Shown piece after piece: positions 30,165 through 48,269 of a DNA stretch of 64,000 nucleotides (position 1 is the first letter of the stretch; every line of letters begins with the position of its first letter). The stretch comes from Acidobacteriota bacterium. Lineage in GTDB: Bacteria > Acidobacteriota > UBA890 > WLXD01. Location of the stretch: NCBI GenBank assembly GCA_029263295.1, contig JAJCXT010000055.1, positions 81,085 through 145,084 of the forward strand, written 5' to 3'. The position numbers and the translations under genes were made by a program. The notes below the pieces were generated by a model. It was not told where the DNA came from. It was given only the letters and a program-made list of their open reading frames with translations, and did no database searches.

Positions 30165-31223
30165 ATGACCGAACCCACCCCCGTTGACTCGCCGCCGGCC
30201 GCTGCCAGTGCCGGACAGCCGCCGCGCAACAAGTTCGTCGCCGCGGCCGCTCGCTGGGGCATGGTCATCATTCTCGTCGGCGCCGCCCTGAACCTGGCCA
30301 TGGCGTGGCAATCGATCGGTTCGGGCGCAAGCCGCGCGCTCGACAACGTAGCGCCCGCATGGCTGGCCGTGGCGGCAGTGCTGGGCATCGCGCCGTGGTT
30401 CTTCAGCTCCGGGCGTATCTGGATGTGGGCCCGATTCCTGGATTGCCCGATCTCGTTCCGCGACGCCCTGCGAACGACTACCGCCACTGAGTTGACCTCG
30501 TCGATCAGCCCCAAGGCAATCGGCGGCGCACCTGCCAAGGTCGCCGTGATGATCGACTCCGGCGTGCGACCCGGCCGGGCCGCGTCGATCCTGCTTCTGG
30601 ACAACCTCGCGGACGTCGTGTTCTTCGCGGCGATCGCCCCCGCCATCGCGTTCTTCACGGCCCGCTGGAAGGTACCGGAGGTCCAGGAGGTACTGCTGCG
30701 CGTTCTCGACAAGCTCGGTACCGTCGCACCGTGGTTGCTCGGCGCTATCGCACTGCTCGTTGTGGTCGCCCTCGTCTGGCGCCGCCGCGCCCCCACGAGA
30801 ACGGATGGCGGCAGCAAGCTTCGTCAGGCGCTTACCCAGGTCCGCACCGACTTCCTGTCGGCGTACGCGCTCGTCGCGCGACGCGGCAAGCTGCACTCGC
30901 TCGCAGCCCTCGGTTTCACGACCGGCCTGTGGCTAACCCGCGCCTCGGTGGCCACCGCGGTGATCTACGGGCTCGGTCAGCAAGCCGACCCAATTCTCTT
31001 CTTCCTGCTGCAGTGGGTCGTGTTCGCGATGATGGTCTTCGTGCCGACCCCCGGCGCCGCCCTCGGCGCCGAGGCCTCGTTTGCCGCCATCTTCGACGGC
31101 TTCGTGGTGGAAGGACTACTGGGCGTACTCACGGCCGGCTGGAGGTTCTTCTCCTTCTACCTGCCGCTCCTGTTCGGCCTCGTTCTGATGCCGCTGCTGA
31201 GCCACAAACGCGACGAGGCCTAG
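30165..31223 (+). CDS. Flippase-like membrane protein (lysylphosphatidylglycerol synthase TM-region family)
   Basis: Multiple TM helices; ATELTSSISPKAIGGAPAKVAVMIDSGVRPGRAASILLLDNLADVVFF. Confidence 0.8.
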   Translation: MTEPTPVDSPPAAASAGQPPRNKFVAAAARWGMVIILVGAALNLAMAWQSIGSGASRALDNVAPAWLAVAAVLGIAPWFFSSGRIWMWARFLDCPISFRDALRTTTATELTSSISPKAIGGAPAKVAVMIDSGVRPGRAASILLLDNLADVVFFAAIAPAIAFFTARWKVPEVQEVLLRVLDKLGTVAPWLLGAIALLVVVALVWRRRAPTRTDGGSKLRQALTQVRTDFLSAYALVARRGKLHSLAALGFTTGLWLTRASVATAVIYGLGQQADPILFFLLQWVVFAMMVFVPTPGAALGAEASFAAIFDGFVVEGLLGVLTAGWRFFSFYLPLLFGLVLMPLLSHKRDEA

Positions 31224-31306
31224 CCGCGGGAGCGACGACGACGCCCTGAGTTGCGGCACGCAGGCAGCCCCGTCCGCACCCCGGTGCGCTGGTTCTGTGC
31301 CGATGC

Positions 31307-31389
31307 GGCCATTCGTCGACCGGTAGCGACAGGTCACCGAAAGGTGAACGACGCGCGCTACCGCCGCCGCGCCGCGAGGTGTTCTGATG
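31307..31389 (+). promoter_or_regulatory. Dispersed 5' element copy C (21-bp-period direct repeat, RBS, ATG)
   Basis: TTCGTCG (31312) and GTCACCG (31333) 21 bp apart; GACAGGTCACCGAAA from 31328, 59 nt upstream of ATG 31387. Confidence 0.65.
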
Positions 31390-33114
31390 AGCACTTTAGG
31401 CACGAACAGCATGGAGAATTCATCGATGGGCAGAGCGCCTTGGCACCGAGTAGTCGTGACACACATCGCCTCACAGCGGGCGGCGCGAACACCGCGGCAA
31501 CGCCGAAGCAGGCGCTCCGCGATGTGCGCGGTTCTCGCGATCGGGTTGGCAGCATCGGCGCTAGCTGGTGCCCAACCAACGGCTCGGTCCTCGCAACAAA
31601 CACGTACGGCAGAGTCGTATCGTCGTGCCCGTACCCAGCTCAAGGAGACCATTCAGGCCTTGGGTGGGCCGGCCGTTACATCGTTTCACGCGCTCGAGCT
31701 TCGCTACTCGGGCACGAGGTTCGCTCGCGGGCAGAGCGCCAGCCCCAACGGGCCCAGCCTCGAACAACCGGTGTCCGGGCGCTTCGTCTACGAGCAGAAT
31801 GGCCGTCAGTACCATGAGAACTCAGCCGTAATTCTCGGGGGAACGGACCGGTCTCACAGGCGCGTCCTCGACGATAGCCAAGGTTGGCATCTGTGGGTTT
31901 CGCGAAAGACGCTGTCGGAGCTATCCCCGAACGACGTTGCGCTGTTGAAGCGCTCTCCCGCCGGCTGGATGGAGAGCACCCTACCGCACAGCCTGGTAGC
32001 GATGGCCCTCGCCAGGCCGGCGGCGCTGCGCTGGCTCGGAGAGGAGGAGCGGGCCGGATCCAGAGTTGCCCGGATCGGGTTCACTGATGCCGTCGGCACC
32101 AGCTTCACGCTGGTCATCGACGGCGCCACGGATCTGCCAACGGCGGTCGAGACGATGGCGTCCGACCTGTTGCTGGGCGACGCGATGCGCACCGTGCTCT
32201 ACGACACGTACGAGTCTGTCGATGGGCTGCAGGTCCCACGTCGTCTCGAGTTCCGGATCAACGATCAGCCGCTGCAGCGGTGGAAGCTCGATGGCGTCAG
32301 GCTGCTGGACGCGGTCGACGACGCCGTCTTCGAGCGCCCCGCAGATGTCGTGCCGGTCGAGTACGCGCCCTCCTTCCGGCCACGACAACTCGCGCCCGGC
32401 GTCTGGGCGATGCGTCTCTATTCAGGGCCAGCGAATACCTACAACACACTCCTGGTGGACGTCGGCGATTCGCTGGTTGTCATCGAAGCGCCTCTGACTG
32501 GCCTGTTTCGCGGGATAGTGCAGCGAGTCGCATCGCAACTCGCTCCGGGCAAGCCCATCCGCCACGTCGTCACGACCCACCACCACCACGACCACTCCGG
32601 GGGCATACGTGCCTGGCTCGGCTCGGACACCACGATCCACACGGGGCCCCAGACGGCAGAGTTCATACGGCGCGTCGCAAGTGCTCAGCACACACTCACG
32701 CCGCAGGCTCCGGTAGCGCCGGAAAACGTGCGGCTGGATGTCGTCACCGACACGACCACGATCGGCGAAGGAGCCAACGCCGTTCGTCTCGTGCAGGTAG
32801 GACCTGCCCCGCACGTCGACGACATGCTCATCGCCTATTTACCAGGCGCCCGTCTCGTATTCGTGTCCGATCTATTCGCCGTTCCGGACGGCGGCTGGTA
32901 CCCGGCGCCGAGCCCGTCGTTCGAGTTCTTCGCAGCGACTCTTGATCGGCTGGGCTGGGAGGTCGACACGTTCGTTTCGGGCCACGGACTCGTCGGCACA
33001 CCCGCCGATCTGGAGGCAGCGTTGGCCGGACCCGGCCCGACCCGCACGCGATCATGGAGCGGCGCCACCGAGTCAACCGGCGGCGGCGATGGAGCGGCGA
33101 CCGGGCGGCGATGA
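31387..33114 (+). CDS. Exported MBL-fold metallo-hydrolase
   Basis: HVVTTHHHHDHSGGIRAWLG; FVSDLF; VSGHGLVGTP; start may be downstream near the hydrophobic segment. Confidence 0.88.
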   Translation: MSTLGTNSMENSSMGRAPWHRVVVTHIASQRAARTPRQRRSRRSAMCAVLAIGLAASALAGAQPTARSSQQTRTAESYRRARTQLKETIQALGGPAVTSFHALELRYSGTRFARGQSASPNGPSLEQPVSGRFVYEQNGRQYHENSAVILGGTDRSHRRVLDDSQGWHLWVSRKTLSELSPNDVALLKRSPAGWMESTLPHSLVAMALARPAALRWLGEEERAGSRVARIGFTDAVGTSFTLVIDGATDLPTAVETMASDLLLGDAMRTVLYDTYESVDGLQVPRRLEFRINDQPLQRWKLDGVRLLDAVDDAVFERPADVVPVEYAPSFRPRQLAPGVWAMRLYSGPANTYNTLLVDVGDSLVVIEAPLTGLFRGIVQRVASQLAPGKPIRHVVTTHHHHDHSGGIRAWLGSDTTIHTGPQTAEFIRRVASAQHTLTPQAPVAPENVRLDVVTDTTTIGEGANAVRLVQVGPAPHVDDMLIAYLPGARLVFVSDLFAVPDGGWYPAPSPSFEFFAATLDRLGWEVDTFVSGHGLVGTPADLEAALAGPGPTRTRSWSGATESTGGGDGAATGRR

Positions 33115-33167
33115 GTGGGGCCGACTCGCGAGGCTCTGCAATCCAGCTCGGAGCATCGAGCAGCTGG

Positions 33168-34571
33168 TCAAGGAGCCTCGGCCTCGATTGCGAACTCCAC
33201 AACCCACAGCTGCCGTTCGCCCCCGACATCGTGCAGCGCGGTGGCCAAGAAACGACCGGCGCCAAGACCCGCCAGGCCCTGGGTATCGCCGCCGTTGGCC
33301 CAGCGTCCGTCCATGCAGGCCCGGCCTTCGGTCAGCGGCACGCCCGGGCCGAAGGTGCTGCCGCCGTCGGTCGAGACCGCGCCGAAGAGGCGGAAGCATC
33401 TCCCCGAGGGGTCTTCACGGCGATCGTTCCAGGTCACGGCTACGACGCCGTCGCTCACCGCGAGGCCAGGGTTGCTCAGATTGGCATCGAAACCGCCGTC
33501 ATTGACGCGTTGCGGCTCCGACCAGGTCCGGCCGCCATCGACGGAGGTCGCCATGTAGATCTGGATGCGCTCCCCAACAGCCTCCGGCCAGACCAAGTAC
33601 ATGGCGCCGCTAGCAGAATCCAACGCCAGACGGCCGCCGCCGAGTCCCATCCGCGAAAGACCGCGACGAGCATTGCCGTAGGTGTGCATGGTGGCCATTT
33701 CAAACGGACCCTCATGCTCCCGAGCGTCATTGCTCAATCGCAGGAGCGAGAACCTGCCCGTGAGGCGCCCATCCCTCGGGCCCTCCCCGCCACCTCGCCG
33801 GATGAACCCGATGTAGGGCAGGAGCAGGTCGCCGCCCGACTCAACCATCAGGTCGGTAACCACGTGCAGAATCTGCTCACCGGGTGGCGGCAAGAACAAC
33901 CGTGGCGACTGATACGAGACGCCGCCGTCATCGGAGTAGGACACTGCGATGACGTCACTCGCAATGCTCTCGAACACCGTGATTCCGATCTTCCCGGCGG
34001 TGTAGATACGGCCTTGATCGGCCCCGTCTCCCGTAACGACTCGCACAAACTGCCGGTCGTAACTGCCGCCGGGGACCGTCACACCCTCCCTCCAGTGGCG
34101 CCCCTCATCGTCGGAACGCCAGACCATCATTCCAGAGGCGAGTGTCGTGAAGAAGGCAGTGCCGTCGAGGCCAAAGGTGATCATGGGGTCACCGCTCGGA
34201 AAGATGTCAGATCCATCCGACTGTGCAGCACGGTCCCACGTGCGGCCTCCGTCATCGCTGGCGTAGATCACCGAGCCACGAGCCCCAGCCGTCATCGCGG
34301 TGACCAGCGCGCGGCGCGAGTCGGAAGGGTCGACCGCAAGCCAGGGCTCGAGCGGCCCGAGTCCAGCAGCGCCGTCGGCCACCCGAACCGCCTGGTTCGG
34401 GCGCGGAACCGACTGCTCGGCGTGCGCGGCGACTTCTGTCTTGGGCGCGGCGATGCCGGCAGAAGTCGCCGTCATCAAGCCGACCACCGCCAGCGTCCGT
34501 GTCACCGCGAGCGCGCCGGCTGTCTTGGAACGTCGCATCACGCGTCGCATCCTCTCGGGGAATATCTTCAA
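33168..34571 (-). CDS. Exported sialidase/BNR-repeat-like beta-propeller protein
   Basis: YASDDGGRTWDRA, WRSDDEGRHWREG, YSDDGGVSYQSP, TSVDGGRTWSEP Asp-box repeats. Confidence 0.88.
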   Translation of the reverse strand: MKIFPERMRRVMRRSKTAGALAVTRTLAVVGLMTATSAGIAAPKTEVAAHAEQSVPRPNQAVRVADGAAGLGPLEPWLAVDPSDSRRALVTAMTAGARGSVIYASDDGGRTWDRAAQSDGSDIFPSGDPMITFGLDGTAFFTTLASGMMVWRSDDEGRHWREGVTVPGGSYDRQFVRVVTGDGADQGRIYTAGKIGITVFESIASDVIAVSYSDDGGVSYQSPRLFLPPPGEQILHVVTDLMVESGGDLLLPYIGFIRRGGGEGPRDGRLTGRFSLLRLSNDAREHEGPFEMATMHTYGNARRGLSRMGLGGGRLALDSASGAMYLVWPEAVGERIQIYMATSVDGGRTWSEPQRVNDGGFDANLSNPGLAVSDGVVAVTWNDRREDPSGRCFRLFGAVSTDGGSTFGPGVPLTEGRACMDGRWANGGDTQGLAGLGAGRFLATALHDVGGERQLWVVEFAIEAEAP

Positions 34572-34624
34572 ACGTCCATCTCAATGATCCTATTGTCTTT
34601 CGCGGCGGGACCTTGCAGCGAGCC

Positions 34625-34708
34625 TGTCCGTTCACCGAGCGCAAACGACAGGTCACCGAAAAACGACCCACTGATCCTGTCCCCTGCCGACCCCGAGGTG
34701 ATTTGATG
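34625..34708 (+). promoter_or_regulatory. Dispersed 5' element copy B
   Basis: TTCACCG (34631) and GTCACCG (34652) 21 bp apart; GACAGGTCACCGAAA from 34647, 59 nt upstream of ATG 34706. Confidence 0.7.
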
Positions 34709-35644
34709 GCCGGCATGAGAAGGACGTTGTGGACAGTTCTCGGGATGGGGATCGCAGGCTTCACGCTGGTGGCATTCGCCAGACCAAGTGGACTCGCGAC
34801 AGAAGCGTCCTCGGCCTGCGAGGCAATTCGTGGCCTGCAGGAGCTTCAGCGGCCGGGGAGTGTCCTCTTGCTCGGTGAGATGCACGGAACCGTCGAGAGT
34901 CCCCGATTCGTTCTGAATGTCGCGTGTCTCGCCGCGAGTGCTGACATACCTATCATCGTCGGCCTGGAGCTCGCCGTCGCCGATCAGCAACTGGTCGACT
35001 CTTTCCTCGAATCGTCGGGCTCGGAACAGGACCGGCAGGCGCTCATGGCAACCTCGCACTGGCAGCGTGACTACCAGGACGGTCGCAACAGCCAGGCGAT
35101 GTTCGAGTTGATTGACGGGCTGCGCCAACTGCGAAGTGCCGGGAATCTTGTCGGCATTGTGTTCTTCGACTCGCAGCCCGGTGGCGGTCAGGCGCGCGAG
35201 CGGGCCATGGCCGAGCGGCTCGCTGGAGCCGTCCTCGGCGCACCTGAGGCCATGGTCGTCGTGTTGACTGGCAACATGCACAGTCGTATCGAGTTCGGCA
35301 ACCGCTTCGACGCGAACTACGAACCCATGGGCTACCTGCTCGCCAAGAAGATCTCCGACCACGACCTGATGTCGCTGAACGTGTCCTACTCAGGCGGCCA
35401 GGCCTGGGTCTGTGCGCCCGAGTGCGGGGTCATCGATCTTGGCAGCCGCGGACCATCGGCCACACCGGTGAACGAGATCCAGCTAGGGTCGGCAGGCGGG
35501 CACCTGGGGACGTACGGAGTGGGACGGATCACCGCCTCGCCGCCAGCCCGCACGCACGCACGCGCCGGACTAGCGGCCGCCCGTCACAGAGAGTCGCTGC
35601 CCGCGCAGCACCCCCAGGAGGCAGCGCCTGCACTCTCTCTCTAG
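34706..35644 (+). CDS. ChaN-like (heme-binding/Tiki superfamily) exported protein
   Basis: SVLLLGEMHGTVESPRF ... GLELAVADQQLVDSFL ... VLTGNMHSRIEFG. Confidence 0.75.
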   Translation: MAGMRRTLWTVLGMGIAGFTLVAFARPSGLATEASSACEAIRGLQELQRPGSVLLLGEMHGTVESPRFVLNVACLAASADIPIIVGLELAVADQQLVDSFLESSGSEQDRQALMATSHWQRDYQDGRNSQAMFELIDGLRQLRSAGNLVGIVFFDSQPGGGQARERAMAERLAGAVLGAPEAMVVVLTGNMHSRIEFGNRFDANYEPMGYLLAKKISDHDLMSLNVSYSGGQAWVCAPECGVIDLGSRGPSATPVNEIQLGSAGGHLGTYGVGRITASPPARTHARAGLAAARHRESLPAQHPQEAAPALSL

Positions 35645-36255
35645 CGCCCCCCGGTGAGCACGACGATGTAGGCGTGCGGGCTACCTTCCTGCAGCACCCA
35701 TGGCATGAACGGGTTGGTCCCGTCGGAGCCGATATCGGCGTTCGTCAGGCCCGGTGCATAGACCATGATGTGCGGTGGGTAGCTGATGACCTTGCTGCCG
35801 TTGAACACCTTGTTGCGGTCCGAGAGCATGTACGAGACGCCGGCTTTGGCCGGCGCCACGAATTCGCCGCTGTCGAAGCCCTCCTGAATGCGGTCGTTGA
35901 TCTCGTCCTCACTCACGCCCGCGCTGCGCAGTCGGCCGCGTTCCATATACACGGGGAGGATGGTGCGCGTTCCTTCCTCATCGAGACAAGTTGGCTCGAA
36001 AGTACCGTTGGGGGCACGCGAGACGAGACACGACGCGCCGTTGGAGCCCTCGCGGGCAACGTCGTAGCCGGCGTCACCGACCACGTAGATCGTGGCGCCC
36101 GCTGCCATCGTCGGGGGGCCGGCGCTTTCGGCCAGAGCGACCTCCTCAGCACGCGTCTCGAATTCAATCGCCTGATGCGCTGACGCCACCGCTGGGAGCC
36201 ACGCGAGGGCTGCCAGCACCATCACCTGCATCGCTGCTGAGCTACGAACGTTCAT
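35641..36255 (-). CDS. Exported protein of unknown function
   Basis: MNVRSSAAMQVMVLAALAWLPAVASAHQ signal peptide; 204 aa. Confidence 0.65.
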   Translation of the reverse strand: MNVRSSAAMQVMVLAALAWLPAVASAHQAIEFETRAEEVALAESAGPPTMAAGATIYVVGDAGYDVAREGSNGASCLVSRAPNGTFEPTCLDEEGTRTILPVYMERGRLRSAGVSEDEINDRIQEGFDSGEFVAPAKAGVSYMLSDRNKVFNGSKVISYPPHIMVYAPGLTNADIGSDGTNPFMPWVLQEGSPHAYIVVLTGGR

Positions 36256-36368
36256 GATCTCTCCTGTCGGTTGTGGCAGAGCCGCGGGGTCGGGCCCTTC
36301 TCTTACTGCGTGACAGGCGCACCTCAAAGGGTTGCAGCGGACCGGCCAACCGCGACGATCGTGGTGTT

Positions 36369-36965
36369 TCAGCGGCTATTCAGTTTCTCCGCGTACGCCG
36401 CCTGGTCGGCCAGCGGCGGGACGCCGTACTCAGCGCGGATGGAGTCGGGCAGCCAATCAGCGTACTCGCCCATCGACCACGGGTCCTCGGGCTCGACGCG
36501 GATGTACTGCGTACCCAATCGCTGGGGCGCCTCCGTGCGGTGGAGATACCGATCGAGCGATGCTGCGCTCAGCCAGCGACCGCCATCGTGGCCCTTGAAA
36601 CCGGCTACGGTCGCGAGGATGTGCGAGATCATGATGTCCTCGGAACCCTTGCCATGCTGTAGAACCATCGCCGCATGGTAGTAGTCGTCGGCCGCTTTGA
36701 GATCGCCGGCGCGGACAATCTCGAGAACGCGGTCGCGGCGTTCCTCGTCCCGCCGGGAGACTCCCTCCCATTGCTCCTCGGTGGGCGGCGTCTCCCACTT
36801 TCGGTCCGCCTGGTCGGCCTCGTACATTTGCCGCAACTCCATCGACACGGGAGAAGCTTCCGCCCTCGCGGGCTCCGGCTCTTGCTCCTGCCCATCCGCT
36901 AGAAGTACCGGCGCAAGTCCTGCGACTAGCAGCCCTGCGACCATAGCCCGTCGATTCCTCGTCAT
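36369..36965 (-). CDS. Exported protein of unknown function
   Basis: MTRNRRAMVAGLLVAGLAPVLLADGQ signal-like N-terminus; HAAMVLQHGKGSEDIMISHILATVAGFKGHDGGRWLSAASLDRYL. Confidence 0.7.
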   Translation of the reverse strand: MTRNRRAMVAGLLVAGLAPVLLADGQEQEPEPARAEASPVSMELRQMYEADQADRKWETPPTEEQWEGVSRRDEERRDRVLEIVRAGDLKAADDYYHAAMVLQHGKGSEDIMISHILATVAGFKGHDGGRWLSAASLDRYLHRTEAPQRLGTQYIRVEPEDPWSMGEYADWLPDSIRAEYGVPPLADQAAYAEKLNSR

Positions 36966-37028
36966 AGTCAATGCCTCGTTCCTAAGATGAGCTTTCTGAG
37001 ATAACCCCGCCGTCTCCGCGGCGCGACG

Positions 37029-37071
37029 AAAAGAAGCGCGGAGTTGCCGATCCTCATTGACAACTCCGCGC
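37029..37071 (-). terminator. Rho-independent terminator downstream of the TonB receptor
   Basis: Minus strand GCGCGGAGTTG...CAACTCCGCGC perfect 11-bp stem followed by TTCTTTT. Confidence 0.75.
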
Positions 37072-37207
37072 CCCAAGAGCTCCCCGTGCTGCCTATCGCA
37101 GAGGAGCCAAAGCAGTTTCTGCGAGTCGCGACGAACGCCCCCGGGGCTAGGAAACCCCGGGGACAACGTCGCGTCGCAAGGTCACCGAAGTGACCTCACG
37201 GCACTCC

Positions 37208-40021
37208 TTAGCGGAGCACCGCGCGGAATCCGAAACGGATCGTGCGGCCCGACTGGACCTCACGGATCTTCTCGAACTGCGAGGACGTGATCGACGAGTG
37301 CTGCGCCAGGATCGTGTCCTGGTTGAGCACGTTGAATGCATCCACGATCAAGTGGATGCGGCCCTGATCGGACAGATCGAACGTCTTCTCAGCACGCAGA
37401 TCGAGCGTCCAGAACGTCGGCAGGCGCTCGGAACCGAAGGTGTCCCGGATCGCGTTGACCGAACCTGCGCCAAAGGCGCGCTCGCCCGAGCTGATGAACG
37501 TGAACGGAGCAATGATGTTGCCCTCACGCACCTGGAAGAAACCGGACACGTTGAACCCTGCGGGCAGCGCGTACATGCCGGATACCTTCAGGAACCAACG
37601 GCTAGCTCCCCACCATGCCTGGGTGCGCGAACCCGCCGCAGCGATCTCGTTGTTCGTCACAGCGACGTTGGTCGGATCACGGTATCCGGTGGACTCGCTG
37701 AACTGATTCGTGGGACTGGCCCAAGTGAACGACGCGTTGCCCAGCCACTTGTTGGCGAAGCGCTTGTTCAGGAACAGCTCGACACCCTTGTACTGGGTAT
37801 TGAACCCAACACGCTGTTGGTAGTGGTTGGCGATGGAACGCGGGCCTACGGGCTCGTAGAACGGCACGCCGTCCGAGTTGGTGGTCAGAGTCCAGAACGC
37901 GTCGTTCTGTTCCCCGTCGCGGATGTTCCAGGTGAAGTTGCTGTTCTTCTTGTAGATGAAGTTGCCGCCGACCGCAAAGGAGCGGTTGATCTCACGCTCG
38001 ATACCGACGATCAGCTCGTTGGTCCAGGGCGCGGAGGTGTCATCTACGATGTTCGGCGAGGCTGCCGTCGGGTTAGCCGGATCCCAGCCACCACTGGTCC
38101 ACAGCAGATCGCCCAACTCGTCCGGCTCGGCCTGGCCGTTGCCGTTCAAGTCGGTCCAGGCGAAGTCCATCTCACGACCACTCGTGATGTTGGTGCGATG
38201 GAATTCACTAGCGCCCATCTGCGAGTAGTAGCGTGCGGCATTCAACCGCAGGATCGTCTTGGAGTCGCCCGTCAGGTCGTAGGTGATACCGAGGCGCGGG
38301 GAAAGGGAGTTCCACGTGCCCTTCTCGGCGCCAGCAAACGAGTTCGCCGGGAACAGACCCGGAGCCAACGAGTGAGCACCGACCTCACTCGCGAGCGACT
38401 GCGACGACTGGTTGTCGTAACGCAGACCAGCGTTGACCGTCAGGCGGCCAGCGCTGATCGTGTCGCCAGCGTAGAAGCTGTTCCGCGTTCCTTCGTAGTT
38501 ATCGATGGAATCGGAAATCAGCCATGCTTCTGCGGGAGCACCTTCAACGAAGGCAGCGACCGCGCCACCCGCCGGACCCCAGATGGAGGCGACCCCGGCT
38601 TTTCGGTAGCTGTATCCGTACTTGATCTCGTGATCAACGTTGGCGCCAGCAATGTAGCTGTTACCGTCGAGACGGATGTTCTTGAGCGGACGATCCGTGT
38701 CGTAGAAGAAGTAGCTGTTGCCCCACTCGCCCGTCGACAGGTCGTAGGAGGGCTGGATGTTGCGGCCACCCTGCGGCTCCAGGAAGAACCCCAGACCGGT
38801 GTTGTTGTACGCGGCCTCGACATAGTTGTTGTCGTTGATCGTGTACTGGGCCTTGACCGTGTGCGTCGGCGTCGGGCCACCCTGATTGAAGGTGGTGTCG
38901 GGCGGACGCGTTGCCGAAGCACCGCGACCCTGCTTGGTCTTGTTGGCCGACACATACGTGTAGTTCAGGACGAAAGCGTCACCCAGGTGAAGGTTGCCCT
39001 TACCGTGGATGTTCTTCAGCTGCGTGTTGTCAGGCGAGACGCCGACAAACTGCTTGATGTCCTGCTTACCGTAGGCACCCCAGACGAAGAACCGATCGCG
39101 AACGACCGGGCCGCCGAGCTCGCCGCCCCAGTCCTTGATGTTGTCGACCGCGTTGCCGATGTAACCCGGGAACAGCTGATCTTCGGTGAAGTTGCCGGTC
39201 AGGTTGCCGTCGCGATCCCCAACCGTGTTGGACTGGAGGCTGCCGTCGGTGATGTAGAAACGGGCCGAACCGCGCCAGTTGTTGCCACCGCGCTTGGTCA
39301 CGAAGTTGATGCGCACGCCGCCCGTAGCGATCGAAGGATCGTTACCCCCAGTGGCAATCGAAATCTCCTCGAAAGCATCGAAGTCATAGTACTGGGGCGA
39401 AGCGCCGAGCGCCGCAACGTCTGTGATCTCGGCGCCGTCGTAGGTCCAGATGGCGTCGGATTGGTTGGACCCGTTGGCCGTGAAGCCGGACTGCTGTCCG
39501 CCTTCCGAACCACCCGTGTTAACCCGATCCACCTGCAGCCCAGCGGTGTGCTCCAGCAGGACCCACGGATCGCGGGCTGAAGGAATCGACTGCATGTACT
39601 CCTCGGTCATGTTGGTGCCGAGGCTGGTGCTCTTGACGTCAACGATGGGGCTGGAACCCGTAACCGTAACGGTCTCTTCAACCGTCGACAGTTGCATCGC
39701 CACGTTGATCTGCGTGTTGCCACCAACGCGGACAGGCAGGCCTTCCTGGATGATCGTCTTGAACCCGTCAAGACCGAAGGTCACCGAGTAATCACTCGAG
39801 GGAGGCAGCACCGGGAAACGGTACACACCGTTTGCCTGGGTGTAGATGGTCGACGACGGAACCTGGTTGCCCGCAATCGTGACCGCTACGCCCGGCAGCG
39901 GGGCACCATCCGGGTCCGTAACGGTACCCGTAATCGAGCCAGTTTCCTGCGCCCAAACCGGGGCGGCAACAAACATGACCATAATCAGGCTCGCGACTAG
40001 CGAGCTCTTGAGGAATCGCAT
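37208..40021 (-). CDS. TonB-dependent receptor with carboxypeptidase-regulatory-like N-terminal domain (Oar-like)
   Basis: QETGSITGTVTDPDGAPLPGVAVTIAGNQ; plug-like region; large beta-barrel-like C-terminus. Confidence 0.95.
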   Translation of the reverse strand: MRFLKSSLVASLIMVMFVAAPVWAQETGSITGTVTDPDGAPLPGVAVTIAGNQVPSSTIYTQANGVYRFPVLPPSSDYSVTFGLDGFKTIIQEGLPVRVGGNTQINVAMQLSTVEETVTVTGSSPIVDVKSTSLGTNMTEEYMQSIPSARDPWVLLEHTAGLQVDRVNTGGSEGGQQSGFTANGSNQSDAIWTYDGAEITDVAALGASPQYYDFDAFEEISIATGGNDPSIATGGVRINFVTKRGGNNWRGSARFYITDGSLQSNTVGDRDGNLTGNFTEDQLFPGYIGNAVDNIKDWGGELGGPVVRDRFFVWGAYGKQDIKQFVGVSPDNTQLKNIHGKGNLHLGDAFVLNYTYVSANKTKQGRGASATRPPDTTFNQGGPTPTHTVKAQYTINDNNYVEAAYNNTGLGFFLEPQGGRNIQPSYDLSTGEWGNSYFFYDTDRPLKNIRLDGNSYIAGANVDHEIKYGYSYRKAGVASIWGPAGGAVAAFVEGAPAEAWLISDSIDNYEGTRNSFYAGDTISAGRLTVNAGLRYDNQSSQSLASEVGAHSLAPGLFPANSFAGAEKGTWNSLSPRLGITYDLTGDSKTILRLNAARYYSQMGASEFHRTNITSGREMDFAWTDLNGNGQAEPDELGDLLWTSGGWDPANPTAASPNIVDDTSAPWTNELIVGIEREINRSFAVGGNFIYKKNSNFTWNIRDGEQNDAFWTLTTNSDGVPFYEPVGPRSIANHYQQRVGFNTQYKGVELFLNKRFANKWLGNASFTWASPTNQFSESTGYRDPTNVAVTNNEIAAAGSRTQAWWGASRWFLKVSGMYALPAGFNVSGFFQVREGNIIAPFTFISSGERAFGAGSVNAIRDTFGSERLPTFWTLDLRAEKTFDLSDQGRIHLIVDAFNVLNQDTILAQHSSITSSQFEKIREVQSGRTIRFGFRAVLR

Positions 40022-40571
40022 TTGCCCTCCTTGGCATTTGCATCAGAGGCAGTCGTTCTCAGTCGCTCGGTAGCGGCCTCGTCGATGCCGAGCACCTGCG
40101 GCGATCACGCCGAGGCACTTGGTTAGAGAGCAAGAGGCGTGCCAACGACCGGCTCTCCAGGCGCCTCTCGATGCATCCCAGAGATCGTCGCAGCGCCATA
40201 ACTAGATCAAACACAAGAACTTACGGAGACTCGATTGACCTGGACCGAGGCTGTCAATCGATCTCATCAAGTTGTCAACTTGTTGGCTGGAGAGGCCGCT
40301 CTTCCGAGCAGGTTCGACGACGCGCTCGATTCATCTCTTTGAACGACTGGATCCAACAACCCGGCCGCGCTGCGCTGCGCTCGACATTTCCGGGCAGCCG
40401 CATCTTGAAGCGAAGCGAGCGAGGAACCCTACGCTCTCGATCTGACGCATCGCCGTCACCACCTGTGGGCAAGACGCACTCCTGCGAAGTCGGGTGACGA
40501 CGTCAGAGCTTCGACGAACTCAGAATCAACCCGGTGACGCCGAACGGGTCGAGGGTCGGGCGCGCGCCAGA

Positions 40572-40940
40572 CTAAGCTGCGTCGTTCTCGGTCGTCCGGT
40601 GCATTTCCGCGCCAACCTGCCGGACCGCCGCCCCGAGGTCATCTTCGCTGAGTCCCCTCTTGTCCATCCAAAAGCTGAGCTTGTCGGCCAAGATCGCACG
40701 CCTCAGATGCCGGGGGTTGCAGCCAAGACGCAGCAGCTTCTGCTCGCGCTCCTCCGACGGATGCGATCGGCAGGTGAGGTACTCCGAAAGAGAGTGATCT
40801 GGAATCTCCAGCCACTCCGCGATCTCGTATTGACGCCAGCCGCGACTCATCCTCGCCCGGAATACCAAGGGCCGCAGGTAACACGCCAGAAACCCGAAAC
40901 GGTACCTGTGCGCGGGGGACAACTCGTGCCCCTTGCTCAC
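40572..40940 (-). CDS. Small helix-turn-helix-like protein
   Basis: MSRGWRQYEIAEWLEIPDHSLSEYLTCRSHP HTH-like segment; GTG start overlaps TGA of upstream gene. Confidence 0.55.
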   Translation of the reverse strand: MSKGHELSPAHRYRFGFLACYLRPLVFRARMSRGWRQYEIAEWLEIPDHSLSEYLTCRSHPSEEREQKLLRLGCNPRHLRRAILADKLSFWMDKRGLSEDDLGAAVRQVGAEMHRTTENDAA

Positions 40941-42838
40941 GACGACGCCCCCACAGTAGAGGTCGCCCTGACGCGAACATGATCCGTGTTTGTGACGTGG
41001 GCAAGCAGGAGCGCGGTAACGCGCGCTGCGTTGCGTTCCATGAGCCAGTGTCCGGCGCCCTCGATGACTTCAAACTGGTATGGACCTTCGACGAACTCAC
41101 TCGTTCCCTCGGCCGCGCCTCTACCGAACGCGCTGTCGGCCGTTCCCCAGACGTAGAGCGTGGGCGCGGTGACCGTCAGCGGGGGCGGCGAACTCGCCGG
41201 GCTGCCCGCAGTGGAGCGAAGTGCCGACGCGCGATACCAGTTGAGAGCCGCTCCGATCGCCTCGGGTGTACCCAGTGCAGCCAGGTACTGATCGACCGCG
41301 TCGTCGTCGAGTCCAGCCAGGATGCCGCGTAGGAATGTCGCTTCGTCGGCAAGGAATCGGTCTTCAGCGTCGTCGGCACTGAACACGGCGAAGTAGGCAG
41401 AGCGGTCCGCCTGGTCGTCGTCTTCGTCGGCGAGCGCACGGCCGAACGAACTGACGTGCGGTGTCGACAGTGCCGTCAGTGTCCGCACTCGATCCGGGAC
41501 TCGCGCCGCGAAGACCCAGGCCACGGCCGCGCCCCAGTCATGACCGACCAGATGGAAGGTCTCGAAATCGAGGGCGTTGGCGATCCCGATGACATCGCCG
41601 ACCAGATGGGTCATCGAGTAGTCGCTCACTCCCGTGGGACGGGCACCGGGCGAATAGCCGCGCTGGTCGGGAGCGATTGCCCGGAACCCCGCCTCGCCAA
41701 GCGCGACCAGTTGATGGCGAAAAGCGTAAGACGTTTCAGGGAAGCCGTGCAGGAGAATCACAGGCTCGCCGTCTGCTGGCCCCGAAGCGAGGGCGTCGAA
41801 GGTCATCTCTCCGACTCGGATCGTCAGCGACTCGAGGGCGGGCGGCGGGATCGCGCCCTCGGCGGTAGCCGCCTGTGCGTCTCCGAGCTGCAGTCGGCGC
41901 ACAACGATCGAGGTTTGCTCTTCCCCGCGCCAGACACCGGCAAGGTTGTTGAACCATAGTGCGGACCCGTCGGGACTCGCGGCGATTCCGTTCGGATGCG
42001 AAAGTGTCGCCGTTCTCGCCGGACCATCGGCGAAGCCGCGCTCGCCGGTGCCCGCGAGACGACTCATCGCACCGTCGAGTGACACGCGGTAGATATCGTT
42101 GGCGTGAAATCTGGTCACGAAGAGATCACCGCGTGCGAAAGCAATGTGGGCGTTGCCGCCGAGGTCATTCCCTCCCGGCGAGGTCGGCTGCGAACTGTCC
42201 CGGCCCGGTAGCGTCGCCAGAATCGTGGCGTTCCCCGAGTCGCTCACCCGCACGACGTGATCGTTCCTGTAGTTGACGACGTAGAGATTGCCGTCATCGC
42301 CGATGGTGATTCCGTTGGGACAGGCGAACAGATCGCCCGAGGCAAGAGCGCTGACCGTGCCGTCGGTGTCCACCCTGCTAATCGTGTTGTTGCCGCAGTT
42401 GCAGACGAAGATCGCGCCGGTGCCGTCGACAACGAGGCCAACTGGGGCTACCAGTCCAGTGTCCACGACGGTCGTTACCTCGCCTGTCCGCGCGACTCTA
42501 CTGATGGTGTGATTGAAGAAATTCGACTGCAATACATCGCCGCGTCGGTCGATGGCGATGCCGGACGAGCCATAGAGCGCTCGCGTCAGGGTCGTGACCT
42601 CGCCATCGGGACCGATCCTCCAGAGCGCGTCGTGGAAGTTCGAGACGTAGACGAAACCAAGCCGATCGACCGCGAGGCCGCCGATCCGGCCCCAGCTCTC
42701 GAGTTCCTCAGACAGCGGGAGCGGCTCGACCTGGGCCGCGACGTCAGGTGCACTCTGTGCGGGGATCCCGGCCGACGCCAGCGAGGACAGAAGCGGCACC
42801 AGGGCCGCGAACGAAAGAAAGACTGTGTGCCACCTCAT
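40937..42838 (-). CDS. NHL-type beta-propeller fused to alpha/beta hydrolase (epoxide-hydrolase-like)
   Basis: N-terminal GVAIDRRGDVLQSNFFNHTISRV-type repeats; C-terminal LLHGFPETSYAFRHQLVALGEAGFRAIAPDQRGY and HDWGAAVAW. Confidence 0.88.
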   Translation of the reverse strand: MRWHTVFLSFAALVPLLSSLASAGIPAQSAPDVAAQVEPLPLSEELESWGRIGGLAVDRLGFVYVSNFHDALWRIGPDGEVTTLTRALYGSSGIAIDRRGDVLQSNFFNHTISRVARTGEVTTVVDTGLVAPVGLVVDGTGAIFVCNCGNNTISRVDTDGTVSALASGDLFACPNGITIGDDGNLYVVNYRNDHVVRVSDSGNATILATLPGRDSSQPTSPGGNDLGGNAHIAFARGDLFVTRFHANDIYRVSLDGAMSRLAGTGERGFADGPARTATLSHPNGIAASPDGSALWFNNLAGVWRGEEQTSIVVRRLQLGDAQAATAEGAIPPPALESLTIRVGEMTFDALASGPADGEPVILLHGFPETSYAFRHQLVALGEAGFRAIAPDQRGYSPGARPTGVSDYSMTHLVGDVIGIANALDFETFHLVGHDWGAAVAWVFAARVPDRVRTLTALSTPHVSSFGRALADEDDDQADRSAYFAVFSADDAEDRFLADEATFLRGILAGLDDDAVDQYLAALGTPEAIGAALNWYRASALRSTAGSPASSPPPLTVTAPTLYVWGTADSAFGRGAAEGTSEFVEGPYQFEVIEGAGHWLMERNAARVTALLLAHVTNTDHVRVRATSTVGASS

Positions 42839-42843
42839 GTGGC

Positions 42844-42926
42844 CATCAAAGCACCCGCGCTACGGTCCGGGGTAGGGATCCGCCGCTGGTTTTCGGTGAC
42901 CTGTCGCCGAAGCCCGGTGAACGGTC
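42844..42926 (-). promoter_or_regulatory. Dispersed 5' element copy A
   Basis: Half-sites 42894-42900 and 42915-42921 (rc GTCACCG, TTCACCG), 21 bp apart; 59 nt to conserved ATG at 42846. Confidence 0.7.
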
Positions 42927-42981
42927 GCGTCGGAGCGAAGCAGTCCCGGCAGCGGGCGTGAGCCTGTCGTAACCTCTTCTG

Positions 42982-44115
42982 ATGCCCAACTCATCACGTC
43001 GAGAACACAGCCTCCCGCAGCGCGAGTTCAGCGCCATGGTCTTGGCCCGGGTAGTGCTGGCCTGGCTGCCCCTCGCCGGTTTGTGGACGCTGATCATTTT
43101 GTCTGTGGAAGGGGCCACTCTCGTTTCCGCGGCGCGGTTCGGCTTCATCTCGATAGGGACCGCGGCGATCCTGAGCTACGGCGTCTGGCACTTGACCGGC
43201 CGCTACGAGTGGCCCGATCACGTGAGCGCGGGTTTCTATCTCGCCCATGCCGGGTTCGCAGCGTTGTTCGCCGTCTCCTGGATGGTGATCGGCATGACCG
43301 CGAACTCGCTGGTCACTGGTCTGCCGATCTTCCGGTGGCACCTCAGTGTGTCGTTCACGTTCTGGCGATTCCTCATGGGGCTGTTTCTGTACGGCCTGAT
43401 CGCGGGCGTGTCCTACTCGATGCGCACCCGCGTGCAGCTACGTCAGCAGGAGACGGCAACGCTCGAGGCTCAGGCGCTAGCCGCCGAGGCCAAGCTGGAG
43501 TCGCTACGCGCCCAGCTCAATCCCCACTTCCTGTTCAATGCGCTGCACTCCGTATCGGAACTGATGCACACGGATGTTGCTGGCGCCGAACGATCGATCG
43601 AAGATCTCGCGGGACTTCTGCGCTACAGCCTCGGGGCCGACAGCGAGGACATCGTGAGCCTGGCACAGGAGTGGGAATTCGTAGAGGGGTACCTATCACT
43701 CGAACGGTTGCGACTTGGTCAACGGCTCCGCTTCGAGAGTCATCTCGACCAGGAGGCGCTCGCCGCTCGAATCCCGAGCTTCACGGTGCAGGTGCTAGTG
43801 GAGAACTCCATCCGTCATGCCATCGCGCCGCGGCCCGAAGGCGGGCGTATCCGAGTCAGCGCGAAGATCGAGGATGAGGTCCTGCAGATCGAAGTCGAGG
43901 ACGACGGTCCTGGGTTCGAAGCCCGGGCGGACTCACCTACACCATCATCGAGCGACGGAGACTCGGGCCGAGGCCTGCCGTTGCTGCGGCAACGACTTGA
44001 TGCCATTTACGCGCTCGCCGGGGATCTTGATATCGACTCACAGCCGGGACGCGGCACGACGGCCACAGTGCGCGTGCCGCAGCCACGCCATCGCCGGGAC
44101 CACCGGTCCACATGA
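42982..44115 (+). CDS. LytS/YehU-like sensor histidine kinase (His_kinase family)
   Basis: AQLNPHFLFNALHSVSELMHTD phosphoacceptor motif; ENSIRHAI; N-terminal TM helices. Confidence 0.93.
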   Translation: MPNSSRREHSLPQREFSAMVLARVVLAWLPLAGLWTLIILSVEGATLVSAARFGFISIGTAAILSYGVWHLTGRYEWPDHVSAGFYLAHAGFAALFAVSWMVIGMTANSLVTGLPIFRWHLSVSFTFWRFLMGLFLYGLIAGVSYSMRTRVQLRQQETATLEAQALAAEAKLESLRAQLNPHFLFNALHSVSELMHTDVAGAERSIEDLAGLLRYSLGADSEDIVSLAQEWEFVEGYLSLERLRLGQRLRFESHLDQEALAARIPSFTVQVLVENSIRHAIAPRPEGGRIRVSAKIEDEVLQIEVEDDGPGFEARADSPTPSSSDGDSGRGLPLLRQRLDAIYALAGDLDIDSQPGRGTTATVRVPQPRHRRDHRST

Positions 44116-44852
44116 AGATCCGAAGCCTGATCGCCGAGGACGAGCCCCTGGCGCGGCGCAAGCTCCGCCGACTTCTCGACGAGTTCGAGGAAGTCGAGGT
44201 CATCGGAGAGTGCGGCGACGGGCTCGACGCGGTGCGGGCCATCGATCAACTCGAACCGCAAATCGTATTCCTGGATATTCAGTTGCCCGGCCTGACGGGG
44301 CTGCAGGTCCTGGAGAGGATCGCCCACCGCCCACACGTGATCTTCACGACCGCGTACGACCGCTATGCCGTCACCGCGTTCGAGATCCACGCGACCGACT
44401 ACCTGGTCAAGCCCTTCGGCAAGGAGCGTCTGGCCGTAGCCATCGAACGTGCCCGGGACGCGCTGCGAAGTGGACTGCGACCCGGCACCTACGACCGCGT
44501 CCCCGAGACGCTCGTGTCCGATGTCCCCCTGACGCGGCTGTTCGTGCGCACACGAAACAAGGTCATTCCCGTGGCCGCGACCTCGATCGAACACCTCGAA
44601 GGAGAAGGCGACTACGTCCGGCTTCACGCTCACGGCGACGAGCACCTGATCCACGTTCGCCTGAAGGACCTCGAGGCTCGCCTCGACCCCAGGCACTTCC
44701 TGAGAGTGCACAAGTCCCACATCATCAACCTGGACTTTCTGGACGCGCTAACGCCCCACGAAGGTAGTCGCTACCTCATTACCCTGCGCAGTGGACGCGA
44801 AGTCTTGGCCAGCCGCAGCCGCTCCAAGGAGCTGCGCAAGCAGATCGTCTAG
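44112..44852 (+). CDS. LytTR-family response regulator
   Basis: IRSLIAEDEPLARRKLRRLLDEF receiver; VFLDIQLPGLTGLQVLE; LytTR region IEHLEGEGDYVRLHAHGDEHLIHVRLKDLEARLDPRHFLRVHKSHIINL; ATGA overlap with kinase. Confidence 0.95.
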   Translation: MKIRSLIAEDEPLARRKLRRLLDEFEEVEVIGECGDGLDAVRAIDQLEPQIVFLDIQLPGLTGLQVLERIAHRPHVIFTTAYDRYAVTAFEIHATDYLVKPFGKERLAVAIERARDALRSGLRPGTYDRVPETLVSDVPLTRLFVRTRNKVIPVAATSIEHLEGEGDYVRLHAHGDEHLIHVRLKDLEARLDPRHFLRVHKSHIINLDFLDALTPHEGSRYLITLRSGREVLASRSRSKELRKQIV

Positions 44853-46115
44853 GGGTCTGCACAGGACCCGCGAGTCCGGGGTGGCCGTCGGTGGCGTCTG
44901 CCAGTGGACCCGATCCCCGGCTCGGATGGCATTCGCGAGAGTCGGCCACTGACGATCAGCCGCCGGAATGAGTTCGCGCTCGAGACGACGAAACCGCTCT
45001 GTGATCGCCGGGTTCCAGTTCAGATAGAGCTTGCCGTCAATGATCGACCAACTATCCTGGGGCCGCGACTGAGCACCGTAGCCCTCGCCTCCGTGGCCGG
45101 AAGCACCGTAGGCGCACCAGCCTCCGTACTGGGGCGCGAAGCTCTCAGGGTCGGCGATGAACGACTCTCTATGCTCTCGGGATACGAACAGCCATGTGGC
45201 ACCGCGCCATACCGTGGAAAGGCCCCCGCGGCCGACTGTCGCTTCCCCTAATGCGAAGTACGCGACCGGGTCGTAGCCGCCCAACGCGTAGCCATTTTCG
45301 AGCACCATGACCTCGGTAGGAGCGAGAGCAGGCTGCCAGTCTTCTCCCTTGACGTACTCCTGCGAACCCATCGCCGACGAAGTCGCGGTCGCCAGCTTAC
45401 GAAACTTCAGAAGCATGCGATCGAGCTTGTAGCGGTTCGGAAACCGCGAGTCCGAGTAGTCGTCGGTGGCATCTGACAGCATTTCCGACCTGGCCACGAG
45501 TTCGAAACCGGCTTGAACGATCTCCCCGATCAGGAATTCCTCGTTGATCCGGTGCGTCTTCTCATCGGCTCCCGCCGAGGGCGTGCGGACATCGACCACA
45601 CCCAGGATCCCGCCTGGTTTGAGGGCACGAAGAAAGCCGGCGTACTCGTCAGCGGGCTCGTCCTCGAGAAAGACGTAGAGATCGTGCAGGTTCCTGATGG
45701 TCACGATGACGTCTACGCTCGCGGGCTCCAGGTCGTCAACACGGGGGACGATGCGCACGTTTTCCAACCGAGCAGTCGCGATCCTCTCCTCGAGTTGCTC
45801 GGCAAAATAGTCCGTCCGAGTGGCCAACACGAGCCCGGACGAACCTAGCAGGCGAGAAAGGACCTGCGTGTTGTATCCGCCGAAGGGGAAGTAGTCCACG
45901 ACCGTCATGCCAGCGCCGACTCCGAACCAGTCGAGAACCTCGAGCGGCATACTGCCAGGATCCCTGGCTCGATCACTCTCCGATCGGGTCGGATCGGACA
46001 GGATGCTCTCGGCGGTCTGCCAAGCGGGTCCAGCGAAGACGTTCGCTACGCTGAACGTCAGCGCACTACAGACCATCATCACCAGCAGGAATCTCGGCTC
46101 GCGTCCGCTTCGCAT
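44748..46115 (-). CDS. Exported class I methyltransferase-like protein fused to YHS domain
   Basis: VLDWFGVGAGMTVVDYFPFGGYNTQVLSRLLG; later GYALGGYDPVAYFALGEATVG...WLFVSREHRESFIADPESFAPQYGGWCAYG YHS signature. Confidence 0.88.
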   Translation of the reverse strand: MRSGREPRFLLVMMVCSALTFSVANVFAGPAWQTAESILSDPTRSESDRARDPGSMPLEVLDWFGVGAGMTVVDYFPFGGYNTQVLSRLLGSSGLVLATRTDYFAEQLEERIATARLENVRIVPRVDDLEPASVDVIVTIRNLHDLYVFLEDEPADEYAGFLRALKPGGILGVVDVRTPSAGADEKTHRINEEFLIGEIVQAGFELVARSEMLSDATDDYSDSRFPNRYKLDRMLLKFRKLATATSSAMGSQEYVKGEDWQPALAPTEVMVLENGYALGGYDPVAYFALGEATVGRGGLSTVWRGATWLFVSREHRESFIADPESFAPQYGGWCAYGASGHGGEGYGAQSRPQDSWSIIDGKLYLNWNPAITERFRRLERELIPAADRQWPTLANAIRAGDRVHWQTPPTATPDSRVLCRPLDDLLAQLLGAAAAGQDFASTAQGNEVATTFVGR

Positions 46116-46141
46116 CTGCTCCCCTTCTGTGGATCCGGCGA

Positions 46142-46852
46142 TCAGGAATCTCGGCCGGGCGCCCGTTCGGGCAGTTCCTGCCGCTCGCGCTTCTCGATGC
46201 CACCCAGCCAGAAGCCGATCCAAGGCCGACCCCAGTCGGGCCACAGCGGATTGTCGGACGGGTAGGCGTCGAACTTGCCGAGCGCCTGGGTCAGCATGAT
46301 CCGCCCCTCGTCCATCCGCCTCGCCCTGATCAGGTCGAACCCTCGTTGCATCCACACTCGCGGGTTGTCCGGGTTCAGTTGTTCGGCGGCGAGACGGTCC
46401 GGCCCTGCGAGGGCCAGCAGCCGCGTGCGCTCGGTGGCGTCCTGTTGCACGTAAGCGCGGTTCGAGTGGATCAGCGCTTGCATCATATGGAACTCTGCTC
46501 GCTCATCGTCCGAGGGTGTCGCCAGGCGTGACCCTGCGAGATCAAGGAGCTCCTGCGCGAGATCCATGTTGGCCAACGCCCCGGGGATATCGTCAGCCTG
46601 CAACTGGGTGCGTGCGTGCGAGGCCCAGAATGGAGCTTCCCACCCGGCCGGATACTCGGACGCGATGTCCTCGAACCGCAGTGCAATCCGCTCCTGCACC
46701 TCGGTGCCGGAGGCAAGGTTGGCGTTCCAATCCGCGATCGCGGCCAGCAGGACGGCCGAGTAGTCAGCGCTCGGGGCCAGCGGCGACAGCGCGCTGGATC
46801 CGTGCGGCACAACGGCGGCGAGAGTGGCAATCAGGAACCAGGCAAGTCTCAT
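46142..46852 (-). CDS. Exported helical/TPR-like protein
   Basis: MRLAWFLIATLAAVVPHGSSA signal; helical tandem segments; 26 bp upstream of methyltransferase-YHS gene. Confidence 0.7.
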   Translation of the reverse strand: MRLAWFLIATLAAVVPHGSSALSPLAPSADYSAVLLAAIADWNANLASGTEVQERIALRFEDIASEYPAGWEAPFWASHARTQLQADDIPGALANMDLAQELLDLAGSRLATPSDDERAEFHMMQALIHSNRAYVQQDATERTRLLALAGPDRLAAEQLNPDNPRVWMQRGFDLIRARRMDEGRIMLTQALGKFDAYPSDNPLWPDWGRPWIGFWLGGIEKRERQELPERAPGRDS

Positions 46853-46947
46853 GGCATGCGCCTCCAAATAACGTGGCAGCATCGGGCACCACGAAAGACA
46901 GTTCAACAGGTGGGGGGGGAGCAGCATGAGCGTCCACTTCGAGAACC

Positions 46948-47030
46948 CATCAAAACATCCGCACTACCCCGCAGCGTAGAGATCCCTCGCCGCTTTCGGC
47001 GAACCGTCGCCAGGAGCCGGTGAAACGCCG
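46948..47030 (-). promoter_or_regulatory. Dispersed 5' element copy D
   Basis: Half-sites 46997-47003 (rc TTCGCCG) and 47018-47024 (rc TTCACCG) 21 bp apart; 58 nt to conserved ATG at 46950. Confidence 0.65.
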
Positions 47031-47080
47031 CGCGGCGGGCGAGAACGGGCCCCTCCGCGCCCCGCGATCTCTCCGTACGG

Positions 47081-47662
47081 CTATGTGGGCTCGATGCGAC
47101 GGACCTCGACCCGCCCCCCGTGGCGCGCGTGCGGGCTCGCCGCGGCCACCGCTTGCGCCGACGCCTCGCTCGCGGCCAGCACGATGAAGAACCCCGTGAC
47201 GCGCTCAGTCGGCAGCGGACCCGAGGGGGCCGGCGCGCCGACTACATCGCCACCGTCGGCCAGTTTTTCCCCGGCCTCTAGCAGGCCGCGCGCGGCAAGG
47301 CCACCTGCCCATTCCGCGTACTCCCTCATTCGCTCCACCTCCACAGCAGGCTCAAGGAACGAGCCCGCCGGCTCCAGCAGTAGTAGCAAGTAGCGATCGC
47401 TGCCTTCCGACGCTGCCTCGCTGGGCGCAGTCGCGACAGGCTCGGCATCGAGGAGATAGCGTTGAGTACCAACCCCGGCGACAAACAGCAGCGTGGCAGC
47501 CGCCACCAATCCCAGAGAGCGAACGGTCGTCCGGCGGACCGGTGCGATCAGCCCCTCAGCACGTAATGCCTCGGTAACCCGTGCCTCGAGCCCGGCCGGC
47601 GGCTGATCGCGGCCGAGTCCGTGCAACGCATGGCGCTCCTGCGCCGACAGTTCCTCAACCAT
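47081..47662 (-). CDS. Putative membrane anti-sigma factor with YCII-like C-terminal domain
   Basis: Overlaps ECF sigma gene; one TM (SLGLVAAATLLFVAGVG); C-terminus RYLLLLLEPAG...MREYAEWAGGLAARGLLEAGEKLADGG...GFFIVLAASEASAQAVAAASPH. Confidence 0.7.
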   Translation of the reverse strand: MVEELSAQERHALHGLGRDQPPAGLEARVTEALRAEGLIAPVRRTTVRSLGLVAAATLLFVAGVGTQRYLLDAEPVATAPSEAASEGSDRYLLLLLEPAGSFLEPAVEVERMREYAEWAGGLAARGLLEAGEKLADGGDVVGAPAPSGPLPTERVTGFFIVLAASEASAQAVAAASPHARHGGRVEVRRIEPT

Positions 47663-48269
47663 GTTGCTTATCTCCTTGTCCGAGCCCTTGCCGTAGCTGG
47701 CGACGCGCGCGGTGCAGTTGGCTCTTGGACGTGCCCGGGCTAATCCCGAGCAATGTTCCGATCTCTTCGTGCGTGTGGCCCTCCACGTCGTGCAACAGCA
47801 GCACCTCGCGATATCCCTCCGCCAGGTTCAACACGGCCTGGCGCAGTTGCGCGCTGCCCACCGGGTCCAGCCCTGCGGCCGGACTACCGTCGAAAGGCGG
47901 GTCTGCAGTCAGATCGGGCACCGCCGTGAGCCTGACCCCGCGGCGATAGTGTTCGCGGCACAGATTCAGCGCGATTCCCGTAAGCCACGTGCGCAATGAG
48001 GACTGCCAGCGGAACGCGGCCAGCCCGCGTGCGGCGCGCAGCCACGTTTCCTGGATGATGTCCTCGGCCCCGTCCACCCCGACCCGCAGCACCGCGAAGC
48101 GGTAGAGCGCCGGTGTGTACGCGCGGTAAAGCTCTCTGAAGCTGGCCTCATCTCGCGCGATGAGGTACGCGTTCACCAGCGTCCGATCCGCGGCCCCGGC
48201 GCTCAGCGCAGCCTCCTGTAGTGAATCTCTTCCATCCAATCTTCCTTGCCGTCTTGGTACCAGCTCCAC
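47655..48269 (-). CDS. ECF-family RNA polymerase sigma factor
   Basis: FRELYRAYTPALYRFAVLRVG...AEDIIQETWLRAARGLAAFRWQSSLRTWLTGIALNLCREHYRR; sigma-4 HTH; start uncertain. Confidence 0.92.
   Translation of the reverse strand: MELVPRRQGRLDGRDSLQEAALSAGAADRTLVNAYLIARDEASFRELYRAYTPALYRFAVLRVGVDGAEDIIQETWLRAARGLAAFRWQSSLRTWLTGIALNLCREHYRRGVRLTAVPDLTADPPFDGSPAAGLDPVGSAQLRQAVLNLAEGYREVLLLHDVEGHTHEEIGTLLGISPGTSKSQLHRARRQLRQGLGQGDKQHG

Follow-up and report, generated by a model that had tools for sequence, protein, structure and literature searches.

Which genes does a newly noticed pair of histidine kinase and LytTR response regulator genes control in this Acidobacteriota bacterium, and through which DNA sites? 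The pair lies in a stretch of 64,000 nucleotides that was analysed as a whole (hereafter, the window). A preliminary description of the locus had proposed that a "LytS-like" kinase and its overlapping regulator are bracketed by two copies of a short candidate target element, A and D. Here, we examine the pair, the elements, the genes that the elements face, and the occurrence of each in the same genome and in related genomes. The coordinates of all features are collected in Table 1.

The kinase and regulator genes are both encoded on the plus strand and, as had been described, overlap by ATGA. The kinase contains (i) a His_kinase domain (PF06580; residues 170–249, with an NPHFLFN H-box) that scores 82.2 bits against a cutoff of 25.2, making it a PF06580-type kinase, and (ii) a HATPase_c domain. 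Its N-terminus carries about four hydrophobic segments. The same combination of a PF06580 kinase gene and a LytTR regulator gene is seen in LytS/LytR-type systems, from which the present pair differs in that Pfam detects neither a 5TM-5TMR_LYT nor a GAF input domain in the kinase (E ≤ 0.001; the kinase core is the sole match). The strict label "LytS" is therefore not supported: any likeness to LytS is confined to the kinase core.

The regulator combines a receiver domain (Response_reg, residues 6–111, 80.4 bits) with a LytTR DNA-binding domain (residues 150–245, 75.0 bits), both above their cutoffs, and so has the domain composition of LytTR two-component systems. Its nearest named family is BtsR (best NCBIfam match, aligned over the full length); the score of 158.9 bits, against a cutoff of 246, places it outside the curated family. 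LytTR Regulatory Systems, in which the partner of the LytTR regulator is by definition a membrane-bound inhibitor and not a kinase (PMC6193735), are a different arrangement, since the partner here is a complete histidine kinase. On the opposite strand, a methyltransferase/YHS frame covers the 3' end of the regulator gene by 105 bp (44748–44852).

Table 1. Features of the kinase–regulator locus; coordinates are window positions, and repeats and start codons are given where they were assigned.
Feature	Coordinates	Strand	Details or basis
Sensor histidine kinase, 377 aa	42982–44115	+	ORF list, Pfam
LytTR response regulator, 246 aa	44112–44852	+	ORF list, Pfam
Element A	42890–42929	-	Repeat 1 42915–42924, repeat 2 42894–42903; in-register ATG 42846; faces NHL-hydrolase operon
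Element B	34623–34662	+	Repeat 1 34628–34637, repeat 2 34649–34658; start codon 34706; faces ChaN/Tiki-like gene
Element C	31304–31343	+	Repeat 1 31309–31318, repeat 2 31330–31339; start codon 31387; faces metallo-beta-lactamase-fold gene
Element D	46993–47032	-	Repeat 1 47018–47027, repeat 2 46997–47006; in-register ATG 46950; faces TPR-like/methyltransferase operon
NHL-propeller/alpha-beta-hydrolase fusion protein, 633 aa, candidate target of A	40937–42838	-	Hydrophobic export-type N-terminus
HTH-like/DUF3606 protein, 122 aa, second gene of A operon	40572–40940	-	4 bp overlap with hydrolase gene
ChaN/Tiki haem-uptake-like protein, 312 aa, candidate target of B	34706–35644	+	
Metallo-beta-lactamase-fold protein, 575 aa, candidate target of C	31387–33114	+	
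TPR-like exported protein, 236 aa with ATG 46852 as start, candidate target of D	46142–46852	-	
Methyltransferase-like protein with YHS domain, second gene of D operon	44748–46121	-	Convergent with regulator
Block with pair and four elements, 15.9 kb	31224–47080		Synteny

Element A was correctly placed in the 143 bp gap (42839–42981) between the kinase gene and the minus-strand gene that starts at 42838. It is one of four copies: a repeat finder showed that the sequence at 42890 recurs, inverted, at 34628 and 31300, and a further, degenerate scan yielded the fourth copy, at 46993, which we take to be element D of the preliminary description. Element D lies 2.14 kb past the regulator stop, with two minus-strand genes (methyltransferase/YHS and TPR-like) in between. 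The proposed bracketing of the pair by A and D stands: both elements flank it, with the operon of A reading outward and that of D inward.

The four elements share a tripartite design, consisting of two 10 bp direct repeats at a 21 bp pitch (i.e., with an 11 nt spacer) and a downstream box in which an ATG is embedded in GRTGnTYTGATG. Read in the sense of the gene that each element faces, the first repeat is CCGTTCACCG in A and B, CCATTCGTCG in C, and CGTTTCACCG in D; the second is CAGGTCACCG in A, B, and C, and CGGTTCGCCG in D. The second repeat is followed by AAA, and a further 46–47 nt lead to the ATG.

In a leave-one-out analysis, the held-out elements scored 34.1, 31.9, 31.2, and 25.2, as compared with 14.5–16.3 for the best non-element position in the window and a maximum of 17.7–22.3 in 20 shuffled windows; each element outscores every other window position except the three training copies. 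Against an expectation of 0.10 occurrences per window, the downstream motif GRTGnTYTGATG was observed four times, in every case at an element and in register. A–D are real, directional elements, beyond chance. Between any two of them, 13–16 of the 16 positions of the second-repeat box agree, while in the spacer core and the 34 nt middle agreement is for the most part close to the chance level, the exception being A and D, which agree at 21/34 positions of the middle. Agreement of the boxes across largely unconserved spacers suggests functional sites rather than recently copied DNA, and an artefact of promoter duplication is rejected on the same grounds (with the noted greater similarity of A and D). 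No RNA family reaches Rfam gathering scores in the window, and a known riboswitch is accordingly not supported.

The architecture resembles that of LytTR binding sites. Published sites consist of two repeats of 9–11 nt with 11–13 nt between them (PMC4847170), a rule to which all four elements conform, and the repeats of LytTR Regulatory Systems are usually 12 bp apart (PMC6193735). In Escherichia coli MG1655, the region upstream of btsT (yjiY), the promoter of the BtsS/BtsR (YehU/YehT) system, contains ACCGCTTACA and ACCACTCAGT at the same 21 bp pitch and with the same orientation of the repeats to the gene. Both systems have a LytTR regulator and very few (here, candidate) targets; they differ in that the four targets here are clustered around the pair and include no pyruvate transporter, and in that the repeats lie 47 bp from the start region, rather than about 140 bp as at btsT. 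Compared with the 8-mer that we take to be the BtsR consensus, repeat 1 of A agrees at 7/8 positions.

A second likeness is to AlgZ/AlgR of Pseudomonas aeruginosa, where the AlgR box is CCGTTCGTC (PMC4064291). In A, B, and C, the first repeat resembles this half-site (7–8 of 9 positions, with 8/9 for C). The first repeat of D matches poorly, at 5/9 positions for AlgR and 4/8 for our presumed BtsR consensus, and the likeness to either half-site extends over 8–9 bases. AlgR sites do not have to occur as pairs at 12 bp spacing, and may lie far from the promoter (PMC4064291), whereas the elements here are all paired and close.

At B and C, the ATG of the element box is exactly the start codon of the ChaN/Tiki-like and metallo-beta-lactamase-fold genes, respectively. 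At A, the in-register ATG begins a three-codon frame (M-A-T-stop), the stop of which overlaps the hydrolase ATG; at D, it begins a frame of about 15 codons ahead of the TPR gene, which has a second in-frame ATG upstream, at 46927. These tiny frames (42835–42846 at A, 46900–46950 at D) are possible leader peptides. The constant spacing between element and start region points to a compact promoter and a short leader; around A, we see no canonical -35/-10.

On inspection, each of the four first target proteins has a hydrophobic stretch near its N-terminus, as is typical of export signals. No recognised transporter was found in the four candidate target operons with Pfam or NCBIfam; BtsS/BtsR, by comparison, is a pyruvate-responsive system with a transporter as its target. 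The candidate target of A fuses an NHL propeller to an alpha/beta hydrolase of the epoxide-hydrolase/dehalogenase type; in the relatives searched, matches span one half of this fusion or the other, and never both. The family of the C target appears to keep company with LytTR systems, since homologues lie directly downstream of (i) another LytTR regulator in the same genome (G000, contig 104) and (ii) a kinase–LytTR pair in the relative G001. This family of large metallo-beta-lactamase-fold proteins, with its LytTR-adjacent members at L197 (11172–13622) and L199 (1762–4900), has 19 matches in the genome G034.

Profile and pattern searches of the 3.36 Mb assembly, which is 78% complete, recovered these four elements only, all of them within 12 kb of the pair. 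The next match has E = 0.058, and the next-best matches in the genome are partial only; given the completeness of the assembly, further elements may be missing from it. In eight relatives (two of the same genus) the best match, at E = 0.019, is background, so that neither the assembly nor the relatives yielded a fifth comparable element. The best match to the kinase in these relatives is 39% identical. One weak element-like sequence on the same contig (L098, 6624–6680; 14.6 bits) has a 20 bp pitch and no downstream box; it lies near the contig's second LytTR pair, about 1.2 kb downstream of that regulator's 3' end, and is probably due to chance. No comparable repeat pair was found upstream of about 30 related kinase pairs (a few of which could not be scored), and the elements hence have no phylogenetic footprint.

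The absence of elements from relatives follows from the absence of the whole block that carries them and the pair. The block is flanked by a flippase-like gene ending at 31223 and a YCII-related gene ending at 47081, the latter beside an ECF sigma factor gene, and it is absent from the same syntenic place in G001, G002, and G003, where about 2.6, 2.5, and 0.4 kb of unrelated DNA, respectively, separate the flanking genes. A search for foreign composition gave no such sign, the GC content of the block (0.61–0.67) being similar to that elsewhere in the window. We found no orthologue of the ChaN-like gene or of the full-length NHL-hydrolase, and no close homologue of the metallo-beta-lactamase-fold gene, among the genomes of the same genus that were searched. 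The ECF gene at the edge of the block invites the reading that the two boxes are -35/-10-like promoter boxes of an ECF sigma factor, for instance the one beside D (47655–48269), for in sigma promoters, too, a pair of boxes stands at a constant distance from the start codon. We consider this very improbable. The two boxes repeat each other directly, a feature that sigma promoters do not require; the ECF gene has no element immediately upstream; and that gene is conserved in G001–G003, i.e., precisely where the elements are not.

The TPR gene has orthologues in two same-genus genomes, G001 and G002 (63% and 53% identity). Relatives carrying element-preceded genes without a LytTR pair, the case that the preliminary description had set against its own proposal, were not encountered: the genomes with these orthologues lack the pair, and the orthologues are not preceded by the element, so that the regulator–target prediction survives. 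Upstream of them lie other, 11 bp tandem repeats (CGTGRCCTTTC), at a site unlike element D (L168, 1285–1330, in G002; L169, about 1316–1350, in G001). The repeat is not a genus-wide motif, with 0–3 matches per genome as compared with 0–2 for a reversed control.

These repeats bear on whether A–D bind some regulator other than the adjacent one: either another of the five LytTR proteins encoded in the assembly, or a winged-helix protein (OmpR/PhoB/CadC-type), with tandem repeats of 10–11 bp. The four further LytTR genes make the former conceivable. As for the latter, the CGTGRCCTTTC repeats resemble one half-site of the elements, and C and B match the pattern with 2–3 mismatches. Nevertheless, what is conserved in A–D is the 21 bp pitch, with no 11 bp unit phase between the repeats (only C has an extra one), and the repeats in the relatives have the opposite orientation to the gene. 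Among the window proteins scanned, no winged-helix match was found inside or outside the block, and besides the small HTH-like protein and the regulator of the pair, the ECF sigma factor was the only transcription factor found. Binding by another regulator is thus distinctly unlikely.

We consider it probable, at roughly three chances in four, that A–D are instead sites of the adjacent LytTR regulator, and that the pair controls four nearby operons, encoding mostly exported proteins, as a local regulon. This reading, drawn from sequence comparison, builds on the LytTR geometry of the elements, on BtsR being the regulator's nearest named family, on the confinement of the elements to 16 kb, and on the joint absence of block, pair, and elements from relatives. 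Together with the likeness to BtsR and AlgR half-sites, these features lend good, if indirect, support to the original proposal of A and D as candidate targets. Under such control, the kinase would respond to a membrane signal by phosphorylating the regulator. The direct repeats of each element, which lie on one face of the DNA and are separated by two helical turns, would then be occupied by two regulator molecules, and these would recruit RNA polymerase at a constant distance from the translation start region. Transcription would thereby be activated at the NHL-hydrolase/HTH (A), ChaN-like (B), metallo-beta-lactamase-fold (C), and TPR/methyltransferase (D) operons. In this scheme, we infer the identity of the binding protein, activation rather than repression, dependence on phosphorylation, and the signal.

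The regulator might additionally bind A to control its own operon from a divergent promoter. Autoregulation is common in LytTR Regulatory Systems (PMC6193735), and the kinase gene has no non-coding DNA upstream other than the gap that contains element A, in which a degenerate half-site, CGTGAGCCTGTCG (42957–42969), is found 63 bp—three pitches—from repeat 2 of A. This half-site agrees at only 9/13 positions, which is not significant among the positions available. Moreover, element A is directional, being oriented to the hydrolase gene with its downstream box on that side only, and no match to a sigma-70-type promoter or terminator was found around the divergent gap, with nothing promoter-like on either side. 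The suggestion that A doubles as a divergent promoter for the kinase is accordingly not borne out; autoregulation of the pair through A is unsupported, and we deem it unlikely.

The 15.9 kb block holds a genuine and well-formed candidate for a local LytTR regulon: a known type of control system, distinguished by unusual clustering and a tripartite promoter module. We advance a wider reading only tentatively, as it is on balance doubtful. Accordingly worded, the block may be a self-contained regulatory island, in which the LytTR pair was gained with new exported-protein genes already carrying the promoter module, and also captured the resident TPR/methyltransferase operon, with element D replacing an ancestral control by 11 bp repeats. 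If true, the combination of repeat, repeat, and GGTGnTTTGATG box at a fixed distance would constitute a new promoter architecture for LytTR regulators. Such regulators are common, and the characterised sites in the literature that we drew on come from few groups (e.g., Proteobacteria, Firmicutes). The block offers a readable case of a regulon found in a single species, whose nearest relatives lack it at the corresponding position; as the pair is accompanied within 16 kb by its likely sites and likely targets, a joint test of site, regulator, and regulon is feasible.
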